From NCBI RefSeq assembly GCF_017464355.1, contig NZ_JAFUAG010000015.1, positions 1 to 64,000 of the forward strand: DNA of 64,000 nucleotides. Reading direction: 5' to 3'. Position 1 is the stretch's first letter, and each line of letters starts with the position of its first letter. Made by a program: the position numbers and the translations under genes. Origin of the DNA: Ruminococcus sp. GTDB lineage: Bacteria; Bacillota; Clostridia; Oscillospirales; Ruminococcaceae. Positions 4,407 to 52,679 of the stretch are shown piece after piece. Below the pieces are notes generated by a model, which saw nothing but the letters and a program-made list of their open reading frames with translations, made no database searches and had not been told where the DNA came from.

Positions 4407-6080
4407 TTACAACGGCCTTATGCCCTTGACATGAGCCGCTATGGCCGAAAGGTCTGTCACGTTCACATCGCCGTCGCCGTTCACATCGGCAAGGCTGTCA
4501 TCTGCCAGCGCCCTTATGCCCTTGACGTGTGCCGCCGTCATCGAAACGTCCGTCACATTCACGTCCCCGTCCAGGTTCACATCGCCTTTCAGCGGAGCTT
4601 CCTCCTGCTCCACGGGAGCTTCCTCACCCTCTTCAAGAGGGTAATTTTTCAGGTCGGGAAGCTCGTCCAGGGTCAGCACATATTCGCTGTTATAGACCTT
4701 CTTCCACATCTCCGCCGTGCTGTATTCCTCCGAAAGCCTGCTGCCGCTGCGCACGAACTCTCCGTTCCATACACAGAACCAGCTCCACAGGGTGCCCCTG
4801 TCATAAGCCTCATCAGGGTCGAAAAGGCAGCCGTTCTCCGAAAGGGTCACTATCTTGGTGTCATCGGTGTAATCCGCCGCTTCCAGGAACTTTGAGGACT
4901 GGGGCGAAGTCACCTGCCTGCCGGGGTAAATGTCCTCCCCGATGATATCCACATATTCGTCCCCCGGGTACCATTCCTTAGCCTGACCGTTGTATACCCA
5001 TATCAGGTTGTTCAGCCCATGCTCGACCGTCAGCTTGTCATACATAGTCACCCAGAGCTTCCTGTAGCTTTCCGCACTGCCGCTGCCCCACCAGAACCAG
5101 CCGCCGCTGCCCTCATGCAAAGGTCTGAACAGCACGGGAACATCTGCCTCCTGCAATTTTTTCAGCTGCTCTGCAATGGCATCTATGTCCGCCACGAGCT
5201 GTGCATAGCCCTCAGGGTCTTCCCCGTTCATGACAGCGTCAAAGTCCATGGTGACATTTGCGGTGTAAAAGCTGCCCCACCACATGGGGTTGCCGTTGGC
5301 GTCCTTACCCTCCTTGATGTACTGCTTGGGTGCGCTCCAGTGCCAGCACATCTCCACGATGCCCCCTGCCTGCGAGAACTCTATAGCCTTTTCCACCGAG
5401 CTGCAGCTTGCCCCCTGAGATACCCTCACAGGGGTGTAGTCCATAAGGTCAAGGCCGACAAGGGCAGGGGTCTTGCCCGTGGCTTCCTTTATGACCTTGA
5501 ATTCGCTGCCGTTGAGCCCGCCGTCGCACTGCTGCCCCGAAATTGTCTTCTCGCCGTAATTGTCTTTCAGAAAAGCCATGAGCCGCCTTGCGCTGTCCGT
5601 GGCATTTTTGTTTGAAAGCTCACCCTTTACATCGTAGCTGTCCTTAAGCTGAGAAGCCGTTATCACCAGCGCATCAAGGTCTATCCACCCCCAGGAGGGT
5701 GTCACAGTAACATCATGGCTGCCCTTTTCCACATACACATTGCCAATGACCGAGTCGCCCATTTTTCCGCTTGCAGACCTGAAGCTGCCCACCTTGTCAC
5801 CATCGACCAGCGCATTGTTCTCCTTTGCGCCGCCCACGCCCGCACTTATGAAATTCAGGCTGTACCAGCCGCTTTCGGGTATCTCCACCTTAAAGGTCAC
5901 ACTGCCCTCGCTTTTCAGGCTGACATGGTCTCCCGCTGCATCAACTCTGTCCAGCACAGCCTCCTCAGCCTCATACCTGTCCCCTGCTCCCTCAGCCGAA
6001 ACAGGCATAGCTGCCGCCGCCAGCACCGCCGCACAAACTGCCGCAAACAGACGGCTGTATCTTCCCTTGACATTACCCAT
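4407..6080 (-). CDS. Cellulosomal GH26 beta-mannanase with CBM35-like module and dockerin
   Basis: A secreted hydrolase that would cut beta-1,4-mannan. Signal peptide about 1-29 (ends PVSAEG). A CBM35-like jelly roll is at about 33-142 (YEAEEAVL ... WGWIDLDALVI). The GH26 barrel is at about 165-470, with acid/base Glu323 in RPLHEGSGGWFWWG and nucleophile Glu415 in TLSENG. A type-I dockerin is at about 498-557 with two calcium-loop repeats (GDVNLDGDVNVTD and ADVNGDGDVNVTD), each followed by an AAHVKGIR helix. Start ATG 6080 has GGAGGG upstream. Length 557 is normal for this architecture and the catalytic residues are intact. The dockerin means it docks onto a cohesin scaffold. Convergent with the ABC ATPase gene. 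Confidence 0.93.
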   Translation of the reverse strand: MGNVKGRYSRLFAAVCAAVLAAAAMPVSAEGAGDRYEAEEAVLDRVDAAGDHVSLKSEGSVTFKVEIPESGWYSLNFISAGVGGAKENNALVDGDKVGSFRSASGKMGDSVIGNVYVEKGSHDVTVTPSWGWIDLDALVITASQLKDSYDVKGELSNKNATDSARRLMAFLKDNYGEKTISGQQCDGGLNGSEFKVIKEATGKTPALVGLDLMDYTPVRVSQGASCSSVEKAIEFSQAGGIVEMCWHWSAPKQYIKEGKDANGNPMWWGSFYTANVTMDFDAVMNGEDPEGYAQLVADIDAIAEQLKKLQEADVPVLFRPLHEGSGGWFWWGSGSAESYRKLWVTMYDKLTVEHGLNNLIWVYNGQAKEWYPGDEYVDIIGEDIYPGRQVTSPQSSKFLEAADYTDDTKIVTLSENGCLFDPDEAYDRGTLWSWFCVWNGEFVRSGSRLSEEYSTAEMWKKVYNSEYVLTLDELPDLKNYPLEEGEEAPVEQEEAPLKGDVNLDGDVNVTDVSMTAAHVKGIRALADDSLADVNGDGDVNVTDLSAIAAHVKGIRPL

Positions 6081-6285
6081 TCTCTTTCCCTCCGAAAAAA
6101 ATATCCTTCACGCAGCACCCTGCTGCTGTATCATTTTACCATGTATCAGCCCCGTTGTAAAGGGAAAAAAGCTATTTCCCGCAAAAGAGAGAATGAAATT
6201 GTTTTCAGAAAAGGTTTAACCTGTCTTTTTACACAAATACCTTACCCGCCGCCCCCAATTATCATATACGAAAAAGTTCAGCCCG

Positions 6286-6615
6286 TCAGTCGGGCACATC
6301 TATAAAGTACAGCTCTTCGGCAGAAGACAGCTTTATCTCATCTTCCGATAACCATTCCACGTTCCAGTATACCGTTTCGGTAAAGCCTGTTTCTTCAAAT
6401 TCAAATATGCATTCGCTGCCGTAAAATACATAAGGCCTGCTGACATAGTCCACCATTAAAGTGACCGTCTTCTCCCCCGAGGGCGACACGATGTCGGTCA
6501 CGGTATCGTATATCAGAGCGTCACGCACCGCAGGAAATATCACCGCCGCCGCCATAGCTATGACCGCAAACCCGAGAACTATCCCCCCCAATATCAGATA
6601 TCTCCTTTTATGCAT
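6286..6615 (-). CDS. Small membrane-anchored hypothetical protein
   Basis: This 109-residue protein has an N-terminal basic stretch and one transmembrane helix (about 6-30), followed by a short extracytoplasmic beta-rich domain (SPSGEKTVTLMVDYVSRPYVFYGSE ... VYWNVEWLSEDEIKL). The SPSG...WLSEDEI pattern resembles small DUF5412-type exported proteins in Firmicutes, but I am not sure. GGAGAA precedes the ATG. It lies between the LRR-dockerin gene and the mannanase without evident co-regulation. Confidence 0.6.
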   Translation of the reverse strand: MHKRRYLILGGIVLGFAVIAMAAAVIFPAVRDALIYDTVTDIVSPSGEKTVTLMVDYVSRPYVFYGSECIFEFEETGFTETVYWNVEWLSEDEIKLSSAEELYFIDVPD

Positions 6616-6618
6616 ATC

Positions 6619-6705
6619 TCAGAGTTCTCCTTTCTGCCGCACCGTTTTCAGACATCTGCCAGAATGCCATAGCCCCCATATCAGCAGAGGAACTATGGCA
6701 TCCAT
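6619..6705 (-). CDS. Possible 28-residue small membrane peptide
   Basis: A short frame (MDAIVPLLIWGLWHSGRC...) stops 3 bp before the start of the 109-residue gene and has a hydrophobic N-terminal stretch. The tight spacing suggests a translationally coupled small peptide or the remnant of a truncated membrane protein. The ribosome site is weak, so this is a low-confidence call. Confidence 0.2.
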   Translation of the reverse strand: MDAIVPLLIWGLWHSGRCLKTVRQKGEL

Positions 6706-6724
6706 AACCTGTATCAGCGCCCTG

Positions 6725-8908
6725 TTACCAGAGGCTCTTTAATCCCTTAACATGGGCAGCTATCATGGCAAGGTCGGTGACATTCACGTCCCCGTCACCG
6801 TTCAGGTCGCCAAGACTATCGTCCGCCAGCGCCCGTATGCTCTTTACATGGGCAGCCATAAGCATAACATCGGTAACGTTAACTTCCCCGTCCAGATTTA
6901 CATCACCTCTCAGCCTGTCAACGACGGGCTTGTCCGGCTCGGTAGGCTCATCAGGCTCGGAAGGCTCATCGGGTTCGGAAGGCTCATCGGGCTCCGAAGG
7001 CTCATCGGGCTCAGTGGGCTGATCGGGCTCGGTGGGCTGGTCGGGCTCGGTGGGCTGGTCGGGCTCAGTGGGCTGATCGGGCTCAGTAGGCTGGTCGGGC
7101 TCGGTGGGCTGGTCGGGCTCGGTGGGCTGGTCTGGCTCAGTGGGCTTATCGGGCTCGACGGGGTCATATTCACTCACCAGCTGGAACTTTATACCGTTAG
7201 CCTTTGCATACTCATGCAGCACATCGCCCTCGTAGCACAGCAGCGTCAGCTTTGATTTCTCGTCCTTTGTATACTCGTACTCCTCCTCACCCTTGGTAAC
7301 AGAAGTATATCCGAAAGCATACTCGTCCACATTGCGTATATGCATTATGGTATCAGTATCGGGCATGAAAGGTCCGAAGCTCTCCAGCGCAGGGCAGTTT
7401 GCAAAGACACCTACACCAATGTACCCGATATCATTGTTATTCTCAAACGTCAGCTTACTCAGAGAAGTACACCCGCAGAAGCACCTGTCGTTCAGTATGT
7501 CGGGGCTGCCCTTGAAAGTCACCTCTTCCAGCGAGGTGCAGTCCTCAAACGAAGATGAAGCCACGAACTTTACCTTTTCGGGTATGGTTATCTTTTTCAG
7601 CGAGCTGCACCCACTGAAGCATCCGGTATTTATCGCATCGATGTTTTCAGGCAGATATATGCCCGTCAGCGAGCTGCATCCGCTGAAAACCTCCCACTCT
7701 ATCCCTGTGACCGTATCGGGGATATTTATATTCCACAGAGAGGTGCAGCCCTTGAATGCCTTTGACCCTATGACCTTGAGTCCCTCGCACAGCTCCACCT
7801 CTTCAAGGGCGGTGCAGTTCTCAAAAACTCCCAGAGGAAGCTCCGTAAAACTGCCGTACAGGCGTATCCTCTCCAGACCCGCTTCCTTGAACGGTTTCTG
7901 ACCCAGGCTCTCCAGGGACTTTGGCAGCACCAGGTCCTTCACCTTAGAATACGCAAAGGCAAGGTTGCCTATCTCCTTAAGGCCCTCCTCCACATCTATA
8001 GTTTCTATATCTGTTCCATAGAAAGCGTAGGTACACAGGCGCTCAACGTTTGAGGGAATGATGAGGTGTTTTATCGTAGAGCCTGTTTCAAAGAAAGCAC
8101 GTCCTCCGATGAGCCTTACATTATCGGGCACCGTCATCTCAGCGGAAGCCTCTGTCACCTCCAGCAGCACCCCATTCTCCACGACAAATCCGTCATCTGC
8201 CAGGCGTTTGCGCTCCTCTAGCCAGGGGGTACCCCGAAATACACTATCTTCTATATCCTGCAGGCCGTCAGGTAAATTCACCGAGATAAGTGACTCACAG
8301 TTCTCAAAAGCGCTGCTGCCTATGGAAGTCACGCTGTCAGGTATCTTTATCTTTTCAAGAGCTGTACAGCCTCTGAAAGTACCATTATCCAGCCTTTCCA
8401 GGTTTGCAGACAGCTTCACCGAAGTCAGCAGCGTACAGAACGAAAAAGCCCTTTCCCCTATGTACGTTACGCTGTCGGGTATCTCTGCCTTTTCAAGCCA
8501 GGAGCAGTTGTGGAATGCACCTACGCCTATACGCTCAAGGGTGTCAGGCAGCTCGACACTTATCAGCTCTGAGCAATCCATGAAAGCGTAGTCGGATATT
8601 TTGGTCACACCCTTGGGTATCACCACATTCCGCACCGAAGACTCGCTGAAAGCATCCTCATTGATACCCACGACCTTGTGGCCGCCTAACTTAGCGGGTA
8701 TGTTTACATCCTTGCTGCTGCCGCTGTACTTGGTGATGTACGCATTATCATTGCTGATATAATAGGTATAATCTCCGTACACCTGCTCCTCGCCCGCAGC
8801 AGAAGCCACCGTCTGCTGCATGAAAATGTTCCTCGCCTCAGGCAGTGCCCCGCCCCCGAAGACCATAGTCAGCGCCATAATTCCCGCTATCACTCTTTTG
8901 TTTTTCAT
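6725..8908 (-). CDS. BspA-like leucine-rich-repeat protein with EPDxP linker and dockerin
   Basis: A 727-residue secreted surface protein. Signal peptide about 1-38 (ends VASAAG). Residues about 48-580 are LRR_5/BspA-type repeats (pattern I-GVGAF-x-x-C-x-x-L-x-x-x-x-IPDSV-x-x-IG). A linker of about 14 six-residue units (TEPDQP, TEPDEP, SEPDEP) follows, and the last 61 residues (about 667-727) are a complete type-I dockerin. No catalytic domain is visible, so it probably has a binding or adhesive role on the cellulosome. It is a tandem paralogue of the next upstream gene: the dockerins are almost identical while the LRR parts have diverged. A third BspA-like gene starts at 63614. The linker is encoded by 18-bp DNA repeats that could vary in number. 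Confidence 0.9.
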   Translation of the reverse strand: MKNKRVIAGIMALTMVFGGGALPEARNIFMQQTVASAAGEEQVYGDYTYYISNDNAYITKYSGSSKDVNIPAKLGGHKVVGINEDAFSESSVRNVVIPKGVTKISDYAFMDCSELISVELPDTLERIGVGAFHNCSWLEKAEIPDSVTYIGERAFSFCTLLTSVKLSANLERLDNGTFRGCTALEKIKIPDSVTSIGSSAFENCESLISVNLPDGLQDIEDSVFRGTPWLEERKRLADDGFVVENGVLLEVTEASAEMTVPDNVRLIGGRAFFETGSTIKHLIIPSNVERLCTYAFYGTDIETIDVEEGLKEIGNLAFAYSKVKDLVLPKSLESLGQKPFKEAGLERIRLYGSFTELPLGVFENCTALEEVELCEGLKVIGSKAFKGCTSLWNINIPDTVTGIEWEVFSGCSSLTGIYLPENIDAINTGCFSGCSSLKKITIPEKVKFVASSSFEDCTSLEEVTFKGSPDILNDRCFCGCTSLSKLTFENNNDIGYIGVGVFANCPALESFGPFMPDTDTIMHIRNVDEYAFGYTSVTKGEEEYEYTKDEKSKLTLLCYEGDVLHEYAKANGIKFQLVSEYDPVEPDKPTEPDQPTEPDQPTEPDQPTEPDQPTEPDQPTEPDQPTEPDQPTEPDEPSEPDEPSEPDEPSEPDEPTEPDKPVVDRLRGDVNLDGEVNVTDVMLMAAHVKSIRALADDSLGDLNGDGDVNVTDLAMIAAHVKGLKSLW

Positions 8909-8949
8909 CTTTTTTGCCTCCTGTTATTTATCTGTATTCTAAGGGATAT

Positions 8950-9045
8950 CCCAATTTGGTTGTGTATTGTTTCCCCCGCCGAAGGCGGGGGAAACAATAC
9001 GAAAAAAGCCATTCTGTATCATCAGCAATACACTTCAAAATTGGG
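8950..9045. repeat. 96-bp double-palindrome dispersed repeat, copy 1
   Basis: The ends are inverted (CCCAATTTGG ... CAAAATTGGG with GTGTATTG/CAATACAC inside). The left half contains a long perfect hairpin, GTATTGTTTCCCCCGCC paired with its complement around a GAA loop. An almost identical 96-bp copy is at 26898-26993, a diverged copy at about 18901-18983 and a half copy at about 47533-47581. There is no reading frame, so it resembles a MITE or REP-type element. It lies between the two LRR-dockerin genes. Confidence 0.8.
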
Positions 9046-9064
9046 AATAAGGAATATCCCCTGC

Positions 9065-11044
9065 TTACCAAAGACTTTTCAGCCCCTTTACATGGGCAGC
9101 TATCATTGCCAAGTCGGTGACGTTCACGTCCCCGTCCCCGTTCAGGTCACCAAGACTGTCGTCCCCCAGCGCCCGTATGCTCTTCACATGGGCAGCCATG
9201 AGCATAACATCGGTAACATTCACTTCCCCGTCCAGATTTACATCACCTTTCAGCCTGTCCTTGTCGGGCTCGGCAGGCTCGTCGGGCTCGGTAGGTTCGT
9301 CTGGCTCCGCAGGCTCATCGGGCTCCGTAGGCTCATCGGGCTCCGTAGGCTCATCAGGCTCCGTAGGCTCATCGGGCTCCGTAGGCTCATCGGGCTCCGC
9401 AGGCTCATCGGGCTCCGTAGGCTGGTCGGGCTCCGTAGGCTCATCAGGCTCCGTAGGCTCATCGGGCTCCGCAGGCTCGAACCCGGGATACACAGGCTCA
9501 GGTCTTTCAACTATCTCATAATCTATGCCGTTGTCAATGGCGTACTGCTGCAGCGGGTCGCCCTCGTAGCAGTATACCTTCACATCGTCGTACTTTTCAC
9601 GTTCGTCATCGCCCACTGACCTGTAGCCGAAGCAATAGTCCTCGGTAACGTATGTACCCTCTCCGTCGCCTATGGGGCCTATGGACTTAAGTGACCTGCA
9701 GCCTGTGAACATATCTTTGTGCAGAGCCGAGTTCAGCGTTCCTATACTTTCAAGCTTTGAACAGCCCATGAAAGCTTCCGCCATAACATTTTCGTTTCCG
9801 TTCAGCTCTATCTCTTTCAGTGACGTGCAGTTCTTGAAAGCACCCTCGCCTATGTACCATACGGTCTCGGGGATATTCACCCTTGTCATCATATAGCAGC
9901 CGGAAAAAGTATAGGGCTCTATCACTTTTACACTGTCGGGCAGATGGATACCTGTCAGCACCTCACAATGCTCAAAGGCTCCTTTACCGATAGGATAATA
10001 ATAGTCTTCACCCCGCTGTCTTTCGGCGGGGTCGTCTTCACAAACAGTTTCGGGGATATTTATCGACCACAGCTCCGTACAAAAACGAAATGCCCACGGG
10101 CCGATATATTCCAGCCCCTCAGGAAGCTCCACCGTTTCCAGAGAATTGCAATATTCAAAAGTATTCTTTTTTATTTCCTTGATACTTGCAGGTATGCTGA
10201 TGTTCACAAGCCCCGACTGTCTGAACGCATAGCAGCCCAGTTCCGTTACAGTATCGGGGATAGATATTTCAGTAAGGTTTTTTGCACTATCAAAAGCATG
10301 GTCTCCAATGTACTTCAGCCCCTTGTTCAGCCTTATCTCAGAAGCCTCAGTATAGTCAAAGGCAAGGGTACCGATATACCTTACGCTGTCGGGCAGTGTG
10401 ATGCTGTCCACCTTACTATCCTGCAGGGCACTTCCGCCTATGACCCTTATCCCGTCGGGAATGACAAGATCGCGCTCTAATTTGTCGCCATTAGTGCCCA
10501 AAAGTATATCGCTGACGATGAGCATATCAGTCTTCTTCATCTGCTCCTTGTACCACTCGGTCATGGTATAATTAGCGCTTCCCAGGAGTTCAAGTTTCTT
10601 GGGAACATTTACCTCCTTGATATTCTCACAAAGATAGAAGACACCATCTTCCATTACTCTGACGCTGTCAGGTAACTTTACGCTCTCAAGCGCAGAGTCA
10701 CTGCGGAAAGCCTCCTCGCGTATGGCAGTAACACCCTCAGGAACGACCACGCTCTTAAGATCATCCATGTTGGCAAAGCACATCGTCCCCAGCTCTGTGA
10801 CCCTTTGTCCGTCTATCTCAGAGGGTATGACCACGTTCTTCTCGGTGCCAAGATACTTCTTTATGCATATTCCACCGTCTTCAGCCGAGTAGTAACGGTA
10901 CTGCCCGTCCTCCGAGTCCTTAGGGATCGCTTCGGCCGATGCCGCAATGTTCTGCGTGAACACATTTCTTCCCTCGGGCAGCGCCCCGCCCCCGAAGAGC
11001 ATGACAACAGCCGCCAGTCCTGCAATAATTCTTTTCGTTTTCAT
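9065..11044 (-). CDS. BspA-like leucine-rich-repeat protein with EPDxP linker and dockerin (paralogue)
   Basis: A 659-residue secreted protein. Signal peptide about 1-37 (ends AASAEA). LRR_5 repeats run from about 60 to 520. A 12-unit EPDEP/EPDQP linker follows, then a C-terminal dockerin (last 61 residues) that differs from the neighbouring paralogue at only two or three positions. No enzyme domain is present. Both paralogues have a cysteine in many LRR units (F-x-x-C-x-x-L). The tandem arrangement implies duplication, with later homogenisation of the dockerin and linker. The inferred role is a cellulosome-attached binding or adhesion protein. Confidence 0.9.
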   Translation of the reverse strand: MKTKRIIAGLAAVVMLFGGGALPEGRNVFTQNIAASAEAIPKDSEDGQYRYYSAEDGGICIKKYLGTEKNVVIPSEIDGQRVTELGTMCFANMDDLKSVVVPEGVTAIREEAFRSDSALESVKLPDSVRVMEDGVFYLCENIKEVNVPKKLELLGSANYTMTEWYKEQMKKTDMLIVSDILLGTNGDKLERDLVIPDGIRVIGGSALQDSKVDSITLPDSVRYIGTLAFDYTEASEIRLNKGLKYIGDHAFDSAKNLTEISIPDTVTELGCYAFRQSGLVNISIPASIKEIKKNTFEYCNSLETVELPEGLEYIGPWAFRFCTELWSINIPETVCEDDPAERQRGEDYYYPIGKGAFEHCEVLTGIHLPDSVKVIEPYTFSGCYMMTRVNIPETVWYIGEGAFKNCTSLKEIELNGNENVMAEAFMGCSKLESIGTLNSALHKDMFTGCRSLKSIGPIGDGEGTYVTEDYCFGYRSVGDDEREKYDDVKVYCYEGDPLQQYAIDNGIDYEIVERPEPVYPGFEPAEPDEPTEPDEPTEPDQPTEPDEPAEPDEPTEPDEPTEPDEPTEPDEPTEPDEPAEPDEPTEPDEPAEPDKDRLKGDVNLDGEVNVTDVMLMAAHVKSIRALGDDSLGDLNGDGDVNVTDLAMIAAHVKGLKSLW

Positions 11045-11228: not shown

Positions 11229-11909
11229 ATGCATACCATTCTCATAATCGAAGACGATGCGGGCATAAATGATATGCTCCGTGTCCTGCTCACACAAAAC
11301 GGCTATAAGACCGTCAGCGCCTATTCGGGTACCGAGGGTCTGCTTGCCCACAGCGATGATATCGACCTTATCCTCCTCGACCTCATGCTTCCCGGCAAAA
11401 GCGGCGAGGCTGTCATCAAAGACCTCAAAAAGAAAAAGAACGTCCCCGTCATCGTCACCAGTGCCATTCATGATGTGAACAAAAAAGTGGACTTGTTCCT
11501 CCTGGGCGCCGATGACTATGTGACCAAGCCCTTCCATAATGAAGAGCTTCTCGCCCGCATTGCCGCCAGGCTCCGTTCCGCCCCCGCCGAAGGCTCTGCC
11601 AAACGCGGCGACAGGCTCACCTATAAGGACATAGTCCTCGACAAGTCCGACCACAGCGTCACCTGCCGCGGCACCGAGATAGAACTCTCAAAGCATGAGT
11701 TCGCCCTGCTGGAGCTATTCATGGAAAGCCCTGGCCGCACCTGCACCAAAAGCCGTATCTACGATACCGTCTGGGAATACGAAAATTCCGCCGACGATAA
11801 TACCCTTAACGTCCATATCAGCAAGCTGCGTAAAAAACTAAAAGAATGTGACCCCGACACCGACTACATCGAAACCGTCTGGGGCATAGGCTACCGCCTG
11901 CGCAAATAA
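11229..11909 (+). CDS. OmpR/PhoB-family response regulator (no adjacent kinase)
   Basis: A 226-residue transcription regulator. The receiver domain (1-120) has acidic EDD near residue 8, phospho-acceptor Asp in LILLDLMLPG (near 53), Thr/Ser in VIVTSA and Lys in DDYVTKPF. The C-terminal winged helix (about 130-226) has the typical LSKHEFALLELFMESPGR ... DNTLNVHISKLRKKL ... VWGIGYRL. The usual partner kinase is absent: downstream is the inverted-repeat element and then a convergent gene. It is therefore an orphan here, with a kinase elsewhere or lost. GGGGGTG lies 5-11 nt before the ATG. Confidence 0.92.
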   Translation: MHTILIIEDDAGINDMLRVLLTQNGYKTVSAYSGTEGLLAHSDDIDLILLDLMLPGKSGEAVIKDLKKKKNVPVIVTSAIHDVNKKVDLFLLGADDYVTKPFHNEELLARIAARLRSAPAEGSAKRGDRLTYKDIVLDKSDHSVTCRGTEIELSKHEFALLELFMESPGRTCTKSRIYDTVWEYENSADDNTLNVHISKLRKKLKECDPDTDYIETVWGIGYRLRK

Positions 11910-11913
11910 ACCA

Positions 11914-12221
11914 AGACACCTCTGCATAGTCAGTGGGGGGACATACATCTGCGTGTTTTATCGGGGGAAACCTTTCTGAAGAAAGGTTGTCCCCCGAACC
12001 CCTTTCCAAAGACTTTTTATATTGGTGTGGCGATAGGTCACTGTTCTGATGTATAACAGTGAATGTCGGACTATTGCTATTCTTTGATAGCATAGTGACC
12101 TATCGCCACACCAAAATAGAAGTTTTAGGAAGGGGGTCTGGAGGATAACCCTTTTTCAAAAGGGTTTCCCCCAGTAAGATACGCAGATGTACGCCCCCCC
12201 ACCGACCGTGCAGAGGTGTCT
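11914..12221. repeat. Element A: 308-bp nested inverted-repeat element, candidate structured RNA/MITE
   Basis: Outer arms 11914-11954 and 12181-12221 are both 41 nt and pair with 5 differences, all transitions. Inside is a hairpin at 11962-11996 (CGGGGGA-AA-CCTTTC/GAAAGG-TTG-TCCCCCG), a perfect 20-bp inner stem (12023-12042 with 12094-12113) around a 51-nt loop, then a second hairpin (AACCCTTTT/AAAAGGGTT). There is no reading frame. Element B (52374-52679) has the same plan in the opposite orientation. The left arm starts 5 bp after the response-regulator stop and the right arm ends 13 bp before the convergent CAT gene, where a shared terminator would lie. Confidence 0.8.
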
Positions 12222-12233
12222 TTGCGTTTACTT

Positions 12234-12899
12234 TCATATCTTCCCCGCCTTTTTTCTGCTGACGAACTCAGCCATCTCCTTTTCCAGCAGCCTGAAAACA
12301 TTCGCCACCAGAAAACCGTCTGCCACTGCATGGTTCAGCCGCACCGTCACAGGCATCATCAGCCGCCCGTTCTCACTGCGGTACCTGCCCCAGTTTATTA
12401 TGGGCAGAAAATACAGATACCCGTCAGGCAGCTCAATGTTCATGCTGTCATATGAAAGCCACGATATGAACGACGCATCGAACCAGTTGGGGTGCCTGTC
12501 GTCCAGCAGATATTCCCTTGTCTGCTTCGCCCTTTCCACATCAGCCAGCGCCCCTTTGTAAAACTCATCGTAGTCCTCGTGATACTCAGTGTACACAGGG
12601 GTGCAGGTCTCGGTGTCCTCATGGAAGATATACTGTGTCGGGTTTATCACATCGTAGCAGATGAGCTGCTCTTTCTCCCATAAATAGCCCATTCTGTAAT
12701 CCTCTCTCGAATTCAGCACCTTTGTAAGCATATACAGAAAGTTTATGTAAAACTTGCTCCCCTCTCTGCGGGAAAGATCTGCCAGCTCCGTCACATCTAT
12801 CCTTGCCGTCATGCTCACCGAGCATTTGCAGTCCTCCGAAAAATGCCTGAATACCCCCTTGCGGTAATAGCTGTCCATATCAATGACCCTGTAACTCAT
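12234..12899 (-). CDS. Chloramphenicol acetyltransferase-like acetyl-CoA acyltransferase
   Basis: A 221-residue cytosolic enzyme of the CAT trimer family. I chose the ATG at 12899 (MSYRVIDMDSYYRKGVFRHF, the family's usual beginning), with GGAGGTG upstream; the longer frame lacks a ribosome site. The catalytic motif reads NHAVADG, with catalytic His190 and Asp194 kept. The first His of the classic HHxxxDG is Asn, as in many chromosomal CAT-like proteins of unknown substrate. Length fits the family (about 215-220). Whether it inactivates chloramphenicol cannot be told from sequence. It converges on the response-regulator gene across element A. Confidence 0.85.
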   Translation of the reverse strand: MSYRVIDMDSYYRKGVFRHFSEDCKCSVSMTARIDVTELADLSRREGSKFYINFLYMLTKVLNSREDYRMGYLWEKEQLICYDVINPTQYIFHEDTETCTPVYTEYHEDYDEFYKGALADVERAKQTREYLLDDRHPNWFDASFISWLSYDSMNIELPDGYLYFLPIINWGRYRSENGRLMMPVTVRLNHAVADGFLVANVFRLLEKEMAEFVSRKKAGKI

Positions 12900-12980
12900 C
12901 ATCAGCACCTCCGTCATACTTTGTCCATCGTTGTTCGTAAACATCTGCGGATCCCTTGCGTAAATATAACATACCACATA

Positions 12981-26887: not shown

Positions 26888-26897
26888 AAACCAAAAT

Positions 26898-26993
26898 CCC
26901 AATTTGGTTGTGTATTGTTTCCCCCGCCGAAGGCGGGGGAAACAATACGAAAGAAGCCATTCTGTATCATCAGCAATACACTTCAAAATTGGG
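26898..26993. repeat. 96-bp double-palindrome dispersed repeat, copy 2
   Basis: Nearly identical to 8950-9045, with the same termini (CCCAATTTGG / CAAAATTGGG) and the same CCCCCGCC-GAA-GGCGGGGG hairpin. It lies 45 bp before the ATG of the GH-A gene, so it is either in that gene's leader or upstream of its promoter. Confidence 0.8.
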
Positions 26994-27037
26994 AGAAACC
27001 AAAAAAGAAAATAAGAAAGAAATAACGGAGGTTTACT

Positions 27038-33535: not shown

Positions 33536-33718
33536 CACTTTCAAAATTCAAACTACCGCCAAAAACAGCACCCTCCCGCCCCTGCCGACAATTATGAATT
33601 AAAAAGTGCGCCAACAGCCAAACCGTCAGCGCACCAAAACCATATACCTTTCAAACCCAAACCCCCGACAAGAACAGCAATCTTCCGCCCCTGCCGACAA
33701 TTATGAATTATGAATTAT
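33536..33718. repeat. Two direct copies of a 3'-end repeat ending AATTATGAATTA
   Basis: The 434-bp gap 33281-33714 is C-rich and gene-free. It holds two diverged direct repeats of about 65-70 bp (33536-33602 and about 33651-33718), each running TTTCAAA ... CAAAC ... ACAGCA ... CCGCCCCTGCCGACAATTATGAATTA. The right copy overlaps the stop codon of galE. Shorter relatives are at 42729, 45328 and 47638. Confidence 0.7.
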
Positions 33719-34725
33719 AATCCGTTGGGGTTGTTCTTTATGAAGTTCCAGCTGCTCGCCGTCATCTCATCAAGGGTCAGCTTGGCCTCCCAGCCGAAAA
33801 CTCTCTTCGCCTTCTCTGGGTCAGCATAACAGGTAGCTATGTCACCCGCACGCCTGGGCATTACCTTGTAGGGAAGCTCCCTGCCGCAGGCCTTCTCAAA
33901 GCTGTGCAGTACATCGTATACGGAAGACCCCTTGCCTGTGCCCAGATTTACTGCGTCACAGCCCTTGTTCTCCAGCACATACTTCAGCGCACACAGATGT
34001 CCCTTCGCCAGATCGACAACGTGTATGTAATCTCTTACACCCGTGCCGTCAGGGGTGTCGTAATCGTCACCGAATACTCCCAGCCTCTCCAGCTTGCCCA
34101 CAGCTACCTGACAAATGTAAGGCAGCAGGTTGTTGGGTATGCCGTTGGGGTCCTCACCTATAAGACCACTCTCGTGAGCGCCGATAGGGTTGAAATACCT
34201 CAGCAGAGATACCGACCACTCAGGGTCTGATACGCATACATCTCTCAGTATCTGCTCTATCATCACCTTGGTGTAGCCGTAAGGGTTGGTGGCCGAGGTA
34301 GGCATATCCTCCGTGTAGGGCGCCTTGTTCACAGGGCCGTATACCGTAGCCGATGACGAGAACACCATCCTCTTGCAGCCCGCCTTGCGCATGGCCTGTA
34401 TCAGCATCAGCGTGCCCGTGATGTTGTTGTGGTAATACTCTATAGGCTTCGCAACGCTCTCGCCTACAGCCTTAAGACCCGCAAAGTGTATCACCGCATC
34501 TATCTCGTTCTCCTCAAATATCCTGTCCATGGCCGCGCCGTCCAGCATATCTGCCTCGTAAAAGCCGAACTCTTTCCCCGTTATCTGACGTATCCTGTTC
34601 AGCGCCTCAGGCTTCGAGTTCGAGAAATTGTCCATTATAACTACATCATAGCCTGCATTCAGCAGTTCAACAACAGTGTGGCTGCCGATAAATCCCGCGC
34701 CGCCTGTTACAAGTATCATTGACAT
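33715..34725 (-). CDS. galE: UDP-glucose 4-epimerase
   Basis: A 336-residue SDR enzyme that interconverts UDP-glucose and UDP-galactose with bound NAD. GGAGG lies 7 nt before the ATG at 34725. The Rossmann motif GGAGFIGSH is near residue 8. The catalytic Ser-Tyr-Lys is in SSSATVYG and NPYGYTKVMIEQIL, and IHFAGLKAVGES is typical of GalE. The C-terminus is complete. The stop codon lies inside a dispersed AATTATGAATTA repeat. It probably serves galactoside use and supply of UDP-Gal for wall polymers. Confidence 0.95.
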   Translation of the reverse strand: MSMILVTGGAGFIGSHTVVELLNAGYDVVIMDNFSNSKPEALNRIRQITGKEFGFYEADMLDGAAMDRIFEENEIDAVIHFAGLKAVGESVAKPIEYYHNNITGTLMLIQAMRKAGCKRMVFSSSATVYGPVNKAPYTEDMPTSATNPYGYTKVMIEQILRDVCVSDPEWSVSLLRYFNPIGAHESGLIGEDPNGIPNNLLPYICQVAVGKLERLGVFGDDYDTPDGTGVRDYIHVVDLAKGHLCALKYVLENKGCDAVNLGTGKGSSVYDVLHSFEKACGRELPYKVMPRRAGDIATCYADPEKAKRVFGWEAKLTLDEMTASSWNFIKNNPNGL

Positions 34726-36187: not shown

Positions 36188-36706
36188 AGTCATACACTCC
36201 GATCAAATAACATCTCAAATCAAAAATAACCGTCCCCCGCCATCGGGAAGACCATGAAGACAAAAACGTCTTCACCTCATCATAACATATTTCCCCCGAA
36301 AATTCAACACAAAATCATATAAACATCAGAAACAACCATAAAATATTTCCCCGACCACACCACACACACCCCCGTCACCACTCCGTCCGCCCCCTCATTC
36401 AAATCATGACGTGTGCTAAACACGGCGGGGGCAAGCCCCCGCCCTACAATTATCTCATACCACAAAAAGAACCCACACCCCAAAAAGCGAGCGCAGCGAA
36501 CACCACAATTATGGATCATGAATTAAATATGCAGCTTCCACAAGACGAAAATCAGAGGGACAGAAAAATTCGTAAATAATAATGTGCAGAAAAATATAGA
36601 AATTTTCAGCGGAATATGCTATAATATCATCGGCAAAGGAATGAGCCTTTGCCCGTTGTAATGTACCCGCCCCCCATAGCGGGATATTAACAAGGAGGAA
36701 CTAAAT
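36188..36706. other. Gene-free stretch with hairpin repeat and ECF-gene promoter
   Basis: Contains a perfect GGCGGGGGC/GCCCCCGCC hairpin (36424-36443) followed by CTACAATTAT, a degraded copy of the 3'-end repeat (ACAATTATGGATCATGAATTA, about 36502-36525), and a -10 TATAAT at 36620-36625 without a clear -35. The only long frame here runs across the hairpin and low-complexity sequence and is unlikely to be real. Confidence 0.5.
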
Positions 36707-42656: not shown

Positions 42657-42728
42657 CACATCACTCCATTCCAAATATCTCGCCCCCCACCCCATTCCCA
42701 AAAGAACAACTCCCTCTCGCCAATGTCA

Positions 42729-42750
42729 ACAATTATGAATTATGAATTAA
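42729..42750. repeat. 3'-end repeat AATTATGAATTATGAATTA overlapping a stop codon
   Basis: One copy of the dispersed repeat. On the minus strand it encodes the last residues (IHNS) and stop of the upstream gene, so the gene's C-terminus is set by the repeat. The preceding bases (AAGAACAACTCCCT) match those before the copy at 47638. Confidence 0.75.
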
Positions 42751-43092
42751 AACCAAACGATACCTCCCCCCGGACTCCCCCACATTTTCCGTCAGCGAAC
42801 CCTCCAGCAGTATCATAGGCCCGTACTGCACACCGTCCACCGTCACACTCTGCCTGCCCGAAACGAAACTGCTTATCAGCCTCTCCAGCATATATCTCTC
42901 ATCAGGGGAAAATTCCCCCTCAGCTTCTATCTCCAACCCCTTAGTGCCGTTGGTCCTCAGGTCTATGCCGCCCCCGACTTTCTCTATCTCATAACAGCTG
43001 TCCCGCCTTGAAAAACTGACAGCCATGGGGTATATCCGCGCATTCTCCGTCACCAGAACATGAGCCGCCTGCTCGCATAAGCTGTACCTCAT
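42733..43092 (-). CDS. Phage module hypothetical protein (119 aa)
   Basis: A beta-rich protein (MRYSLCEQAAHVLVTENARIYPMAVSFSRRDSC ... EGEFSPDERYMLERLISSFVSGRQSVTVDGVQYGPMILLEGSL). AGGAGG lies before the ATG, and the start overlaps the previous stop by ATGA. It could be a small tail or connector component; not recognised. Its final residues and stop come from a dispersed repeat, implying truncation or replacement of the original end. Confidence 0.55.
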   Translation of the reverse strand: MRYSLCEQAAHVLVTENARIYPMAVSFSRRDSCYEIEKVGGGIDLRTNGTKGLEIEAEGEFSPDERYMLERLISSFVSGRQSVTVDGVQYGPMILLEGSLTENVGESGGRYRLVLIHNS

Positions 43093-45278: not shown

Positions 45279-45327
45279 TATAACACACCCACAGTTGCGT
45301 TAACGCAACTCCCTCCCGCCCCTTTCA

Positions 45328-45362
45328 ACAATTATGAATTATGCATTATGAATTATGAATTA
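45328..45362. repeat. 3'-end repeat, expanded copy
   Basis: Contains three ATTATGAATT/ATTATGCATT units in a row and ends 8 bp from the stop of the protease-like gene on the minus strand, in the same orientation to the gene as the other copies. Confidence 0.7.
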
Positions 45363-45369
45363 AAAAGCC

Positions 45370-47375: not shown

Positions 47376-47665
47376 CCTCCGACCACTCCTTTCAAACCAT
47401 TACATTCCGTCCTCCTGCTCCGCTTACCTGTCATCTGCTGGTCAACACCGCCCCGTGTCCCCGCATTAGTGCCCAACTGCTTCCCCGTAAGCTTCCTCCT
47501 CCCCACCCACCCGCCCACAAATCATTCCGTACTCCCATTCCCCAGCCTTCGGCGGAGAAAACAATACATAATCAAATTGGGATAATAATAATTGCCCCCA
47601 CTCCTCCTCCCAAGAACAACTCCCTACCGCCCATGCCAACAATTATGAATTATGAATTAAAAAAA
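47376..47665. repeat. Repeat-filled gap between terminase and portal genes
   Basis: Holds a right-half copy of the 96-bp element (about 47533-47581: CAGCCTTCGGCGG ... AACAATAC ... CAAATTGGG) and a 3'-end repeat (47638-47660) that ends 6 bp from the terminase stop. No gene is seen. Confidence 0.65.
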
Positions 47666-48922
47666 CTATACCGATAAGACCGCGAACCCCCGTCCGCCGC
47701 TGTCCTCCAGGGAACTCACAAAATACCTCAGGTCGTCCATGGCGTGGTCGTTCTCCTTGACAGGACAATCCCTGCCCGCCCCCTCTTCCCAGCGGTATAA
47801 GGAAAACTCCCGCAGTATGTCACTGCATTCTCTGCTTATCATCAGCTTTCCTTCACGTATAAAGTCCTGGGTCCTGCGTATGCCCGATACCACATCGTTC
47901 TTCGCCGCCGTCACCCTGAACCTCCCGTGGCGCTTTATGCACTGTATGAATGACGCCGCACTCGGGTCGCATACCACATAGTCTATGTCACGCTCCCCCG
48001 CTAATTCTTCCAAAGCCCCGTAATGCTCCTCGTCTGTCCGCCTGCTGCCCTCTCTCGCCGAGTCGTAGTAGTATTCCTCTATCCTGTACCATATCCCTCC
48101 GCTAAAGCCCCAAAGCCCGAAACTGCTCGGGTTGACTGTGCCGTAGTCACAGCTCACCACAAACCTTTCGTATTTCTCAGGCAGCTCCCCGCAGACATAT
48201 TTCCTCTCGTCGAACATGGGGTATACAAGCCCCTCCGCCGCACTCCACTTTCCCAGAACGAACCTCTCATAAAACGCACCGGTGTACAGCCTCTTGTACC
48301 GCTTGATGACCGCCTCGCTCAACGAGGGATTGTCGCTCAGATCAAAGTGTATATACAGCAGATTTTTCACCGCCGCTTTATCTATCCATTCCCTCTTGAA
48401 CCAGTGGTAAGGGTGATCGGGATTGCAGTTGAACCATAGCTTCGACCCCGTCACCGAACACCTCGCCACCGCCTGCTCCACAAAACTACGGGGCATAAGC
48501 GCCGTTTCGTCCATAAGTACCCCCGCCAGCGTCACACCCTGTATCAGCGAGGCCGAAGCCTCGTCCTTTCCGCCGAACAGATAGTACCTGTTGCGCCGCC
48601 CCCCGAAATCTACGTCCATGTAGTTCTTCGATATGTTCTCCGTCACCGTGAACCCCAGCTTCTGCGCCCATCTCAGCAGCTCCGTCAGCAGATTTCTCCT
48701 CAGGCTGATTATGGTCTTCCCGCATAACCCGAAGTTCCTGCCGTTGAACCGCCCCATGCTCCATACCAGAAAACTCAGCGCCATGCAGCTGGTCTTTCCC
48801 GACCTCACTGCCCCGTCGCATATAACTCCGTCATACCCGCGGAAATCCTCGCTGCACCACCACTTGAACAGAAATCTCTGCTTCTCCGAAAATTCAAGGC
48901 CCCTGCGCTTAGGCTTCCCCAT
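47666..48922 (-). CDS. Phage terminase large subunit
   Basis: A 418-residue packaging motor. Start ATG 48922 with a purine-rich site upstream (a GTG at 48928 is possible). Walker A is GAVRSGKT (about 37-44) and Walker B VLMDETALM. The nuclease domain has the acidic residues of VVSCDYGTVNPSSFGLWG, YVVCDPSAASF and NDHAMDDLRYF. All ATPase and nuclease motifs are intact. It overlaps the small-subunit gene. Typical of PBSX/Terminase_3-type enzymes. Confidence 0.92.
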   Translation of the reverse strand: MGKPKRRGLEFSEKQRFLFKWWCSEDFRGYDGVICDGAVRSGKTSCMALSFLVWSMGRFNGRNFGLCGKTIISLRRNLLTELLRWAQKLGFTVTENISKNYMDVDFGGRRNRYYLFGGKDEASASLIQGVTLAGVLMDETALMPRSFVEQAVARCSVTGSKLWFNCNPDHPYHWFKREWIDKAAVKNLLYIHFDLSDNPSLSEAVIKRYKRLYTGAFYERFVLGKWSAAEGLVYPMFDERKYVCGELPEKYERFVVSCDYGTVNPSSFGLWGFSGGIWYRIEEYYYDSAREGSRRTDEEHYGALEELAGERDIDYVVCDPSAASFIQCIKRHGRFRVTAAKNDVVSGIRRTQDFIREGKLMISRECSDILREFSLYRWEEGAGRDCPVKENDHAMDDLRYFVSSLEDSGGRGFAVLSV

Positions 48923-49406
48923 CAGCACCGCCCCTCTCCGTCACATCTCTCAGGTCCTGGGAACCCCCGTATACCGCATTCAGGAATTCCTGCGCCGCCG
49001 ATACTTCCTTAAGCTCAGGGTCAAGCTCCACCAGCTTCTCCAGTGCCTTCTGCCTGTCAAAGAACTTCATCTCAACTCCGCCGCCCTTCACACGCTTTAT
49101 CTCCGCCACGTTGAAAAGGTCAGCCTTGAGCACGTCCTCTGCCTTAAGCTCCTCCGCAAACACCAGCGCCGCCGCCTCGTTAATGCTCCCGAATGCCAGC
49201 CTCGATAGACCCGTCTTCACATAGCACAGGGTCTGCATATCCTCCTTGTCCAGCTTCTTTATCTCCCGCTTTACCGCCGCGTTCGCCAGAAAGTCCGCCT
49301 CTATCCGCTTAGCCTCCGCAGGCTCCGCCCCCAGCCTTACCGCTGTCTCCGAACCGTTCCTTGTCCTCACGAACATCTTCGCAAATGCCCTCGCCGAAAT
49401 TTTCAT
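48909..49406 (-). CDS. Phage terminase small subunit
   Basis: A 165-residue DNA-recognition subunit, first gene of the module. AAGGAGG lies before the ATG. An N-terminal helix-turn-helix region (ARAFAKMFVRTRNGSETAVRLGAEPAEAKRIEADFLANAAVKREI) has the terminase_2 layout, followed by a helical oligomerisation region. It overlaps the large subunit by 14 bp. No integrase, repressor or replication genes lie upstream. Confidence 0.8.
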   Translation of the reverse strand: MKISARAFAKMFVRTRNGSETAVRLGAEPAEAKRIEADFLANAAVKREIKKLDKEDMQTLCYVKTGLSRLAFGSINEAAALVFAEELKAEDVLKADLFNVAEIKRVKGGGVEMKFFDRQKALEKLVELDPELKEVSAAQEFLNAVYGGSQDLRDVTERGGADGEA

Positions 49407-49673: not shown

Positions 49674-49736
49674 TAAATTAGGGTATTATCGCAGAATATG
49701 TCCCTTTGCCCCAGTAAACCGAAAGGAGCGCGCAAA

Positions 49737-50072
49737 ATGTATAGTATCAAAAACCTGCCCGAGGAAGTCCACTCTCTCCGTGAGGAAAGAGGCAGCGGCT
49801 ACGAAACAAAAGATGTCCTGGAACTTCTCTCAAGTATGATGACCGAGCTGAAAGCCCTCGAAGAATGCTGGCAGCTCAAGACCTGGAACAAAGAATTCAC
49901 CCGCCCCGAACCCTACCGCAAGACCCGCCTGCGCGCCGCCCGTATGCTGGGTTATAATGTGGAGGACGTTCAGAAACTGGTGAAAAGCCTCGATGATAAG
50001 ATCGTCCAGATGCGGGCTAAACTCGGCGTCGAAAGAGATAAAAAGAACTGGAACCAGGAGTGGCAGAACTGA
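49737..50072 (+). CDS. Small helical hypothetical protein
   Basis: A 111-residue protein. GAAAGGAG lies before the ATG at 49737 (longer frames lack a site). It is strongly charged and helical (YETKDVLELLSSMMTELKALEECWQLKTWNKEF; VQKLVKSLDDKIVQMRAKLGVERDKKNW), with coiled-coil character and no membrane segment. Not recognised. It has its own promoter and is followed by the element C hairpin. Confidence 0.65.
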   Translation: MYSIKNLPEEVHSLREERGSGYETKDVLELLSSMMTELKALEECWQLKTWNKEFTRPEPYRKTRLRAARMLGYNVEDVQKLVKSLDDKIVQMRAKLGVERDKKNWNQEWQN

Positions 50073-50091: not shown

Positions 50092-50230
50092 AAAACTGCT
50101 GGACTCTATGGGCGGTGCTTGCAGAGGAGCTTATATGTTTTACCGTGGAAAACCTCTCTTCAGAAAGGTTTCCCACGATAAAATACATAGTCTTCTCTAT
50201 AAGGCACCGCCCGTAAAGTTCAGCAGTTTT
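50092..50230. repeat. Element C: 139-bp near-complete palindrome, minimal relative of elements A/B
   Basis: Outer arms AAAACTGCTG / CAGCAGTTTT continue through GGGCGGTGC/GCACCGCCC (3 differences in 27 nt, all transitions). The centre is the A/B hairpin module CGTGG-AAAACCT/AGGTTT-CCACG. It lacks the inner 20-bp stem and the asymmetrical spacer. On the plus strand the right arm ends in CAGCAGTTTTTAT, like a terminator. It lies after the 111-residue gene. Confidence 0.75.
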
Positions 50231-50442: not shown

Positions 50443-52365
50443 ATGCCCTTTACCAGCCAGTTCAAAATTGTCATGTATGCGGCCAGTATGCTCATCTGCG
50501 GCACAGGCCTGCTCTTTACCCTGCTCAACCGCCGCACCGACAAGACCCAGAATAAAATATACGTCAGCACCCTCATCATGCTCATACTCAACTGCATCTC
50601 CGAGATAGTCGCTGCCGTGGCACAGCCCTACAGCACCACATCTCCCGCCGCAGCTTTCCTGGAAAATGCAGGCAATTACACCTACTTCCTTATCCACATC
50701 ATGGTGTCGCCTGTGTTCTTTTTCTATGTGCTGGTGGTCTGCGGCGCCAATATCAAGGGCAAGAAAAAGCGCTATATCCTCTGCGCCGTCCCCTGTATCC
50801 TGGGCGAGCTTACAGTGGCGCTCAACCCCGTTACCAAGTGGGTCTACTACTATGACAATAATATGCTCTACCACCGCAACTGGGCGCTCATGCTGCTCTA
50901 TGCAGGGGCAGGGCTCTATATCGTCATGGCCGTTTTTATGCTCATGTTCTCCTGGCGGGCGCTCAATCCAAAACGCCGTATCGCCCTCATCTACTTCTTC
51001 GCCCTCGTCATCGGCGGACTTTGTGTGCAATTCTATTTCTTCGACCTGCGCACCGAGCTTATGGGCGAAGCCCTGGCGCTCCTGGGCGTCATGATATCTA
51101 TAGAGATAGAAGATGACCGTATCGACGCAGATATGGGCATTTACAACCGCCGTGCCCTCAGCGCCGATATGAATACCTATCTGGTCAGCGACCGCAGCCT
51201 TTACCTGCTCTGCGTGAAGATAACCAATACCGAGATAATCAAGCGCGCCACAGGCTCCGACAGCACCGATGCCCTCTCCCGCCTTGTGGCCGAATACCTG
51301 CGTACCCTCGTGCCCAGGTATTACATCTATTCCTCCAGCCCGGGAACTTTCATCATCACCCTCCTCGATGAGAACGAGCAGAAAGCCGTGTGGCTGGCAA
51401 ACACCATAATCACCCGCTTTGAAGAACCCTGGGATATCGGCGATAACGTCATTCCCCTGAAAGCTACCGTCATGGCCGCCAGCGTCCCCGACAGGATAAA
51501 GTCCGTCAGCGATGCCCTCTATATGGCCGACAGCCCCGTTCCCAAAAAGCTTGAAAAAAATATCCTCACCGATTCCGACCTTGACTACCTGCTCCGCCGT
51601 GCCGCGGTGGAAAGCGCCATTTCAAAGGGTCTTGATGCCGAGAACTTTGAGGTATTCTACCAGCCCACCTACCACGTCGGCACCCGCAGGCTCCACGGTG
51701 CCGAGGCTCTTATCCGCCTCCATGACCCCGACCTCGGCAACCTCTTCCCCGATGAGTTCATTCCTATCGCCGAGCAGATAGGCCTTATCGACGAGATAGA
51801 TGCCTACGTCCTGCGGCAGGTCTGTGAGTTCATCAAAAGCGGTATACCCGCCCGCTATGGCATGGACTGCATCAACGTCAACCTCTCCGTCCTCGAATTC
51901 ATGCAGCCCGCTTTCGTTGACCGTATCGTCGCTACCGTCACCGAGTTCGGCATAGATACCAAAATGATCAATTTTGAGATAACCGAAACTATCGCCGCCA
52001 GCGATTATATCACCCTCAGCCGCGTCGTCCGTGCCCTGAAAAAACAAGGCTTCCGCTTCTCTATGGACGACTACGGCACAGGCTACTCAAATATGCAGTC
52101 TATCTTCCGCCTTGATTTCGATATCGTCAAGATAGATAAGAGTATCCTCTGGAGCGCCGAAAAAGGCCAGATGGGCAGGATAATCCTCGATAGCAGCGTC
52201 CGTATGATAAGACAGATGAAGCGTAAAATTCTGGTGGAAGGTGTCGAGACCGAGCAGCAGCTCAAAATGATCCGTAACCTCGGTGTCGATTTCGCCCAGG
52301 GCTACCTCTTCTCCCGCCCCATCTCCAAAACTGACTTCATCACCCTCCTGGAAAAAGAACTGTAA
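50443..52365 (+). CDS. Membrane cyclic-di-GMP phosphodiesterase (degenerate GGDEF + EAL)
   Basis: A 640-residue protein. The N-terminal about 220 residues contain seven or eight TM helices (7TM-type sensor). A GGDEF-like domain (about 225-380) lacks the active motif, reading SSSPGTF, so it is not a cyclase. The EAL domain (about 390-640) keeps catalytic groups: AEALIRLHD, NFEITET, DDYGTGYS, VKIDKSIL, VEGVETEQQ and QGYLFSRP. It should hydrolyse c-di-GMP in response to a membrane signal. AAAGGAGGG lies before the ATG. Element B lies just downstream. Confidence 0.9.
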   Translation: MPFTSQFKIVMYAASMLICGTGLLFTLLNRRTDKTQNKIYVSTLIMLILNCISEIVAAVAQPYSTTSPAAAFLENAGNYTYFLIHIMVSPVFFFYVLVVCGANIKGKKKRYILCAVPCILGELTVALNPVTKWVYYYDNNMLYHRNWALMLLYAGAGLYIVMAVFMLMFSWRALNPKRRIALIYFFALVIGGLCVQFYFFDLRTELMGEALALLGVMISIEIEDDRIDADMGIYNRRALSADMNTYLVSDRSLYLLCVKITNTEIIKRATGSDSTDALSRLVAEYLRTLVPRYYIYSSSPGTFIITLLDENEQKAVWLANTIITRFEEPWDIGDNVIPLKATVMAASVPDRIKSVSDALYMADSPVPKKLEKNILTDSDLDYLLRRAAVESAISKGLDAENFEVFYQPTYHVGTRRLHGAEALIRLHDPDLGNLFPDEFIPIAEQIGLIDEIDAYVLRQVCEFIKSGIPARYGMDCINVNLSVLEFMQPAFVDRIVATVTEFGIDTKMINFEITETIAASDYITLSRVVRALKKQGFRFSMDDYGTGYSNMQSIFRLDFDIVKIDKSILWSAEKGQMGRIILDSSVRMIRQMKRKILVEGVETEQQLKMIRNLGVDFAQGYLFSRPISKTDFITLLEKEL

Positions 52366-52373
52366 ACACCAAA

Positions 52374-52679
52374 ACAAGGCCGAAAAAGCACGCTCCTGCG
52401 GGGAGTGGCGCTTATAGAGAGAGCTGCGTGTCTACTGGGGGAGACCCTCCCTAAAACTTTTTACGTTTTGGGGCGAAAGGGTGCTGTCCTATAATAGTAT
52501 AGCGAATATCCGCCACTTACTGTTCTATCGTAGAATAGCACCCTTTCGCCCCAAAAATATAAAAAGTCTTTGGAAAGGGGTTCGGGGGATAACCTTTCTT
52601 CAGAAAGGTTTCCCCCGATAAATACGCAGTTTTCTTTATAAGCACCACCCCTTGCAGGAGCGCGCTTTTTCGGCCTTGT
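52374..52679. repeat. Element B: 306-bp nested inverted-repeat element, candidate structured RNA/MITE
   Basis: Outer arms 52374-52429 and 52624-52679 are each 56 nt and pair with 8 differences, all transitions. A perfect 20-bp inner stem (52466-52485 with 52537-52556) encloses 51 nt. On the right is the hairpin CGGGGGATAACCTTTC/GAAAGGTTTCCCCCG. Read on the minus strand it aligns end to end with element A. It begins 8 bp after the EAL stop and ends 8 bp before the convergent ABC-F stop. Confidence 0.8.

Follow-up and report, generated by a model that had tools for sequence, protein, structure and literature searches.

MITEs are short and non-coding, bear terminal inverted repeats, occur in tens of intergenic copies and give transcripts with strong hairpins, a general description that draws in part on PMC10969869. 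The pneumococcal repeats SPRITE, RUP and BOX are presented in part of PMC3049150 as MITE-like and over-represented between convergent genes, with SPRITE resembling a terminator. According to sections of PMC1525189, IS1397, ISRm22 and IS621 target palindromic extragenic REPs, often between convergent genes, and ISRm22 inserts at the axis of palindromy. The subject of the IS1447 paper, in the portion of PMC6211511 consulted, is not terminator targeting. Part of PMC8604942 describes how template switching in quasipalindromes makes the arms alike, inverts the spacer and lowers the ratio of transitions to transversions, and also mentions earlier bacterial data favouring transversions; multi-base compensation and loop inversion are described for rRNA genes in part of PMC8794818. 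Each case in these sections concerns one locus, in a yeast gene or in rRNA, at which both the arms and the spacer are short.

The repeat family described here was found in a window of 64,000 nt from Ruminococcus sp. (contig NZ_JAFUAG010000015.1, positions 1 to 64,000). Like MITEs, its members have terminal inverted repeats, are multicopy and dispersed, and are short with no transposase gene inside. In contrast to MITEs, neither a target-site duplication nor a parent transposase was found, the site lies inside a terminator-like hairpin, and the arms vary among copies yet match within a copy. The over-representation between convergent genes is shared with the pneumococcal repeats, a likeness at the level of description; SPRITE has its own terminator-like duplex, whereas the outer stem here is locus-specific. 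The choice of site is also similar to that of IS1397, ISRm22 and IS621, but those elements are coding and address one repeated target family, while the present family is non-coding and its host stems are unrelated. Several marks of template-switched quasipalindromes are present, namely homogenised arms (outer repeats and inner stem, not the side hairpins X and Y), spacer inversion and multi-base compensation, and the ratio of transitions to transversions is lower when all 28 analysed copies are counted, though not significantly so in the 19 less diverged ones. Unlike the published cases, the repeat is dispersed, has loops of about 50 nt and displays such marks in numerous copies. Group IIC introns are likewise associated with terminator hairpins, insert beside the hairpin and are ribozymes; an Rfam scan of the window, proposed in the initial annotation, returned no match to any family at the gathering score. 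The family belongs to a broadly known kind; what sets it apart is where it sits and how visibly its arms match. In a literature search, with most subscription papers outside its scope, no description of the repeat was found, and six sequence strings occurred in no paper. PMC8040213, which deals with candidate structured RNAs from the human microbiome, could contain the motif. The family is probably (at a probability of roughly 0.64) a MITE-like, non-coding palindrome residing in terminator loops, with arms kept matched mainly by correction at the DNA level.

Organization of the element

From the outside inwards, a copy is composed of a host stem, a terminal inverted repeat, hairpins X and Y, linkers, and an inner stem with its loop. 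The terminal inverted repeat starts near GGGYGG and includes a variable segment, hairpins X and Y stand one on each side with related yet different sequences, and the inner loop is about 50 nt long across copies. The entire nested palindrome of copy A spans 11913-12222, with no strand assigned, between a response-regulator gene (11229-11909, + strand) and a CAT-family acetyltransferase gene (12234-12977, - strand). Its locus-specific, terminator-like host stem comprises 14 perfect bp, with the left arm at 11913-11926 and the right arm at 12209-12222 (both annotated on the + strand), the latter followed by a T-rich stretch. Between these arms, and on the + strand except for hairpin Y, are the left terminal inverted repeat (11927-11961, variable segment plus X-type end), hairpin X (11962-11996), linker X (11997-12022, imperfectly paired with linker Y), the left arm of the inner stem (12023-12042), the inner loop (12043-12093), the right arm of the inner stem (12094-12113), linker Y (12114-12137), hairpin Y (12138-12174, - strand) and the right terminal inverted repeat with its Y-type end (12175-12208). 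Both hairpins are conserved modules detected by model R1.

The initial annotation had placed two elements of common plan in the window, and both are present. Copy B (52374-52679, no strand assigned) is oriented opposite to A and lies between an EAL-domain gene (50443-52365, + strand) and a gene for an ABC-transporter-type ATPase (52688-54634, - strand). Its outermost 16 bp form the host stem, which is locus-specific and bears no relation to the outermost arms of A. The inner stem of B (arm 52466-52485, - strand; partner 52537-52556) and that of A are each perfect over 20 bp, and the loop is exactly 51 nt in both (52486-52536 in B), as had been claimed; the stem of A can be lengthened outward by one further bp. 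The two inner stems were said to differ at eight of 20 positions; seven differences were counted, every one compensated and five of them transversions. The claim of a shared plan holds for hairpin X (52583-52617 in B, - strand), which is kept, and fails for hairpin Y, which by eye is deleted in B with its flanks remaining. As judged by eye, differences between the outer arms of A and B are indeed all transitions.

The family is not confined to the two copies noted in the initial annotation, and a third, short copy lies within the window at approximately 50093-50229 (no strand assigned, outer limits by eye), where both terminal repeats surround a single hairpin. A separate terminator-like stem encloses this copy, and the genes on its two sides (49698-50072 and 50443-52365) are both on the + strand. 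A gene for a terminase small subunit (Pfam Terminase_2) at 48909-49406 suggests prophage genes near copy B.

Other repeats occur in the window. A second palindromic family is found at 8948-9046, 26896-26994 and 47538-47584, with two copies 99% identical over 99 nt and the third related; a similar sequence follows gyrA in a relative (L221). The short unit AATTATGAATTA recurs at 33581-33722, 36498-36530, 42722-42754, 45321-45367, 47632-47664 and 56273-56305. Furthermore, three adjacent related genes at 4407-11044 contain repeats in their C-terminal parts, with a motif that may be dockerin-like.

RNA folding of A and B yielded energies far under those of shuffled sequences (z of -23.7 and -18.1, respectively). 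A simple consensus scan of 11700-12450 detected no sigma-70-type promoter around A, which counts against reading the family as a structured non-coding RNA transcribed mainly on the X-to-Y strand and held in shape by selection on RNA pairing, an explanation that we consider unlikely.

Family size and distribution

In the genome of the window, 63 matches on both strands corresponded to 40 distinct places, seven of them at contig ends. Within the genus, 21 of the 29 genomes (own included) had matches, at 2 to 53 per genome with both strands counted, and the remaining eight genomes contained no family match. Genus-wide conservation of the X and Y modules speaks for a structured RNA; the eight genomes without a match and the lack of an Rfam match in the window speak against it.

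Relatives were searched with a covariance model, as the initial annotation had advised, here built from 36 sequences of the conserved module of hairpin plus linker, and matches beyond A and B were obtained. Under stricter filters in both cases, the family-level search was positive in 14 of 100 genomes, representing 13 of 99 sampled genera (own included), and the phylum-level search in 4 of 398 sampled genomes, two of them weakly. A pattern scan of named genomes gave at least 114 stretches. Among the 80 listed, the assemblies were named as Ruminococcus (including Ruminococcus albus KH2T6), Oscillospiraceae and other Clostridia, with one labelled Nitrospinota (L144) that may be contamination. 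No match to the repeat was found in the plasmid and phage collections.

Copies vary in composition. Short copies consist of the two ends around one hairpin, and some copies carry an additional insert of about 21 nt beside hairpin Y. In G002, another genome of the genus, paired hairpins are about 178-223 nt apart and about a dozen are unpaired, these having been followed in part; most hairpin pairs among the 80 listed named loci are 80-240 nt apart. The hairpin-plus-linker module is also seen in loci lacking the inner unit (L107, L131, L160 and L144), and L160 has two inverted copies of about 300 nt, 84% alike, on either side of a SipL-domain gene. By eye, three loci from other members of the genus (L054, L073 and L055) carry a relative of the element with hairpin Y at one side, the opposite side being diverged and devoid of a hairpin.

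Location in terminator-like stems, mostly between convergent genes

Statistics of arms and position were calculated for 28 of the 40 places (23 long and 5 short copies). The seven at contig ends were excluded, together with five that were partial, diverged or otherwise unused, including the short copy of the window. The longest perfect stem formed by the host flanks averaged 11.25 bp across the 28 copies versus 5.75 bp for shuffled partners (0 of 300 shuffles). This stem reached at least 9 bp in 21 copies and was below 9 bp in seven, with practically none in L012. The flanks of the host stem contained 48% A before and 49% T after, values for which a control was not computed.

By a lenient ORF test, 27 of the 28 copies are located between convergent genes; the contig of the remaining copy is too short for a decision, and some five of the 27 calls depend on a one-side ORF of 92 to 125 codons. 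For comparison, the window has 53 pairs of adjacent ORFs, of which 8 are convergent. A and B occupy two of the corresponding gaps (324 and 322 nt); the other six comprise three of 48-75 nt with one hairpin each (by eye), two of 146 and 344 nt, and one overlap. The preference for convergent genes is not absolute, because the short copy of the window sits between same-strand genes.

The position of copies directly after the stop codons of convergent genes, together with the A-rich and T-rich flanks, would fit selection for strong two-way termination or for protection of mRNA 3' ends, which would keep long hairpins paired on both strands. A single short hairpin is nevertheless sufficient after clpB in relatives and is what three of the other six convergent gaps of the window contain, and termination does not need a stem of about 100 bp. 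Taken with the loop inversions described below, which it leaves unexplained, selection of this kind appears somewhat less probable still than the structured RNA.

Among relatives, copies are present at some gene ends and absent at others. The 3' end of clpB has a copy in the genome of the window and, by eye, plain terminator hairpins with a different stem in the nine closest relatives. Copies or remnants follow gyrA in G002, G003, G005, G013 and G010 and are absent in G026, G023, G018 and G004, and by eye no copy was seen at the rqcH ends of nine relatives. No strict empty site was found among the clpB, gyrA and rqcH ends of relatives.

Co-variation between the arms

Compensation in the stems, as reported in the initial annotation from two copies, is real and far beyond chance in the family. 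Pairs were counted in 16 of the 23 long copies, with B and six copies bearing the extra insert omitted. In this set 40 of 104 pairs had changed on both sides, compared to 27.6 +/- 2.2 in shuffles; the covariation score was 0.275 against 0.116 shuffled, and slid structures gave at most 21 two-sided pairs. In 23 copies, the outer variable segment was 84% complementary when the two arms belonged to one copy and 65% when they came from different copies (0 of 5000 permutations). Furthermore, 103 identical two-sided changes were observed where 12.7 were expected under independent arms. Strong co-variation across copies is what a structured RNA would predict.

Decay of old repeats was considered as a source of the pattern and rejected: complementarity is steady with divergence from the most uniform, and possibly youngest, subfamily (Spearman 0.10, p 0.62, 28 copies). 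Results for G002 were weaker and in the same direction, with complementarity of 0.69 within versus 0.63 between copies (54 of 5000 permutations, 19/21 rows), or 0.76 versus 0.67 (30 of 5000) for 13 rows that omit half copies, a duplicate, and L102, whose arms are offset. Hairpins X and Y are not homogenised, with identities among 22 copies of 0.99 for X-X, 0.93 for Y-Y and 0.83 for X-Y, the last both within and between copies. Since X and Y are unmatched within a copy, either correction is local or the identity of X and Y is held by something else.

Types of change and loop orientation

In all change-type counts, cells and pairs are not independent. Two-sided changes comprised 60 transitions and 43 transversions (43 of 103), and one-sided changes 68 transitions and 7 transversions. 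Loops had a transition to transversion count of 165:38, from which the two-sided 60:43 of all 28 copies differs (Fisher p 3e-5). With the analysis restricted to the 19 copies of lesser divergence, the two-sided count was 27:12 and its difference from the loop count was not significant (p 0.13); the one-sided 68:7 did not differ significantly from the loop count either (p 0.07). Two-sided changes accounted for 43 of 50 transversions and 60 of 128 transitions. The higher two-sided share of transversions fits tolerance of wobble pairs, which could arise from selection or from the correcting process itself; correction that is blind to the type of change should treat transitions and transversions alike.

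These counts bear on both explanations that invoke selection on RNA. One-sided changes are almost all transitions, in agreement with a structured RNA, and they are wobble-compatible on both strands, in agreement with selection for two-way termination. Two-sided transversions are common, however, and they argue against RNA selection because a transversion has no G-U intermediate; in addition, compensation by way of G-U would shift the ratio of transitions to transversions in the direction opposite to the observed 60:43. The outer arms, read on the X-to-Y strand, have no excess of G-U over A-C (30:47), contrary to expectation for an RNA transcribed on that strand. The linkers on the same strand do show a wobble bias (81:24), from few sites that are shared by descent; L020 is misoriented in these G-U and A-C counts, and those for the core exclude B. 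In alignment A2, the fixed differences between the X and Y linker helices (columns 85-108 with 205-227) read as G-U on one strand only. This observation is in favour of a structured RNA and is not explained by simple correction between arms.

The inner loop was inverted relative to X and Y in 13 of 44 pairs of copies with related loops, in two stem families. Both orientations among related copies are most easily explained by exchange between DNA arms, and loops invert at the level of DNA. As a second possible cause, the inner unit may have inserted independently in either orientation, which we consider less probable because linker variants are associated with inner-stem families. The occurrence of both orientations is a further point against a structured RNA. 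The initial annotation had taken the compensated stems to point to selection on a folded molecule, perhaps within a non-autonomous element; the family does look like a non-autonomous repeat, and the step from compensation to selection on a folded RNA is made less probable by the outer-arm counts, the two-sided transversions and the loop orientations.

Mobility

L007, L010, L011, L030 and L035 form a subfamily whose members have almost identical ends and differ in host stem, suggesting recent spread. Among the matches in the genome of the window, in G002 and among the 80 listed named loci, no autonomous copy enclosing a gene, and no related IS sharing the ends of the element, was recognised. 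The wide facing pair of L107 encloses a 3-dehydroquinate synthase gene and the gene within L160 is that of the SipL domain, neither being a transposase, and the two hairpins of L116 enclose several ordinary-looking ORFs. Flanks were inspected by eye for target-site duplication; loop remnants are often complementary, and a duplication is thus inseparable from the stem.

Two types of mobiliser were considered and rejected, as the distribution of neither follows the element. Y1_Tnp, of the Y1 type (RAYT), is present in 16 of 29 genomes, with one weak match in the genome of the window and none in carriers including G010, G015, G016 and G020. A match to PF02371, for the IS110 type, is absent from the genome of the window, an assembly that is 91% complete.

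Movement as a self-targeting hairpin of folded single-stranded DNA into terminator loops, with pairing needed for the transposition intermediate, would account for the loop-centred position with locus-specific stems, for the nested hairpins, and for near-identical ends at different host stems in the young-looking subfamily. The arms of that subfamily are only 72-80% matched, however, no better than those of old copies, and no candidate enzyme of the IS110 or Y1 type was found to track the element. Pairing maintained by such an intermediate is therefore the least probable of the explanations considered and appears remote.

Proposed mechanism and implications

For the preferred reading, a palindrome in terminator loops with arms corrected at the DNA level, the following sequence of events is envisaged. 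The element would sit in the loop of an intrinsic terminator, mostly a two-way terminator between convergent genes, where its terminal inverted repeats, its two side hairpins and the inner stem would stack with the host stem as a single hairpin. Copies would reach new sites through an enzyme supplied in trans. During replication of the palindrome, template switching or recombination would copy changes from arm to arm, and the same switching would sometimes flip the loop, such that arms stay matched while copies drift apart. The host may tolerate or use the element because the outer stem would still terminate transcription from both sides. A bolder version, in which a mobile palindrome addresses intrinsic terminator loops between convergent genes and has its arms rewritten as a matched pair after landing, leaving dozens of self-correcting hairpins in the genome that share an architecture and differ in sequence, is offered tentatively and at less than even odds. 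DNA correction may also be combined with weak selection on pairing, a contribution for which the wobble bias of the linkers speaks.

Stem positions that co-vary are ordinarily taken to indicate a conserved RNA. In this family, located in the gene terminators of gut Ruminococcus-like bacteria, strong co-variation extends over dozens of copies, but the two loop orientations, the two-sided transversions and the lack of strand preference in the outer arms favour DNA copying between arms, making the family a test set for telling selection from template switching. If the bolder version is true, the family would be a natural, replicated record of bacterial template switching and would caution against accepting two-sided co-variation among repeats as proof of a functional RNA.
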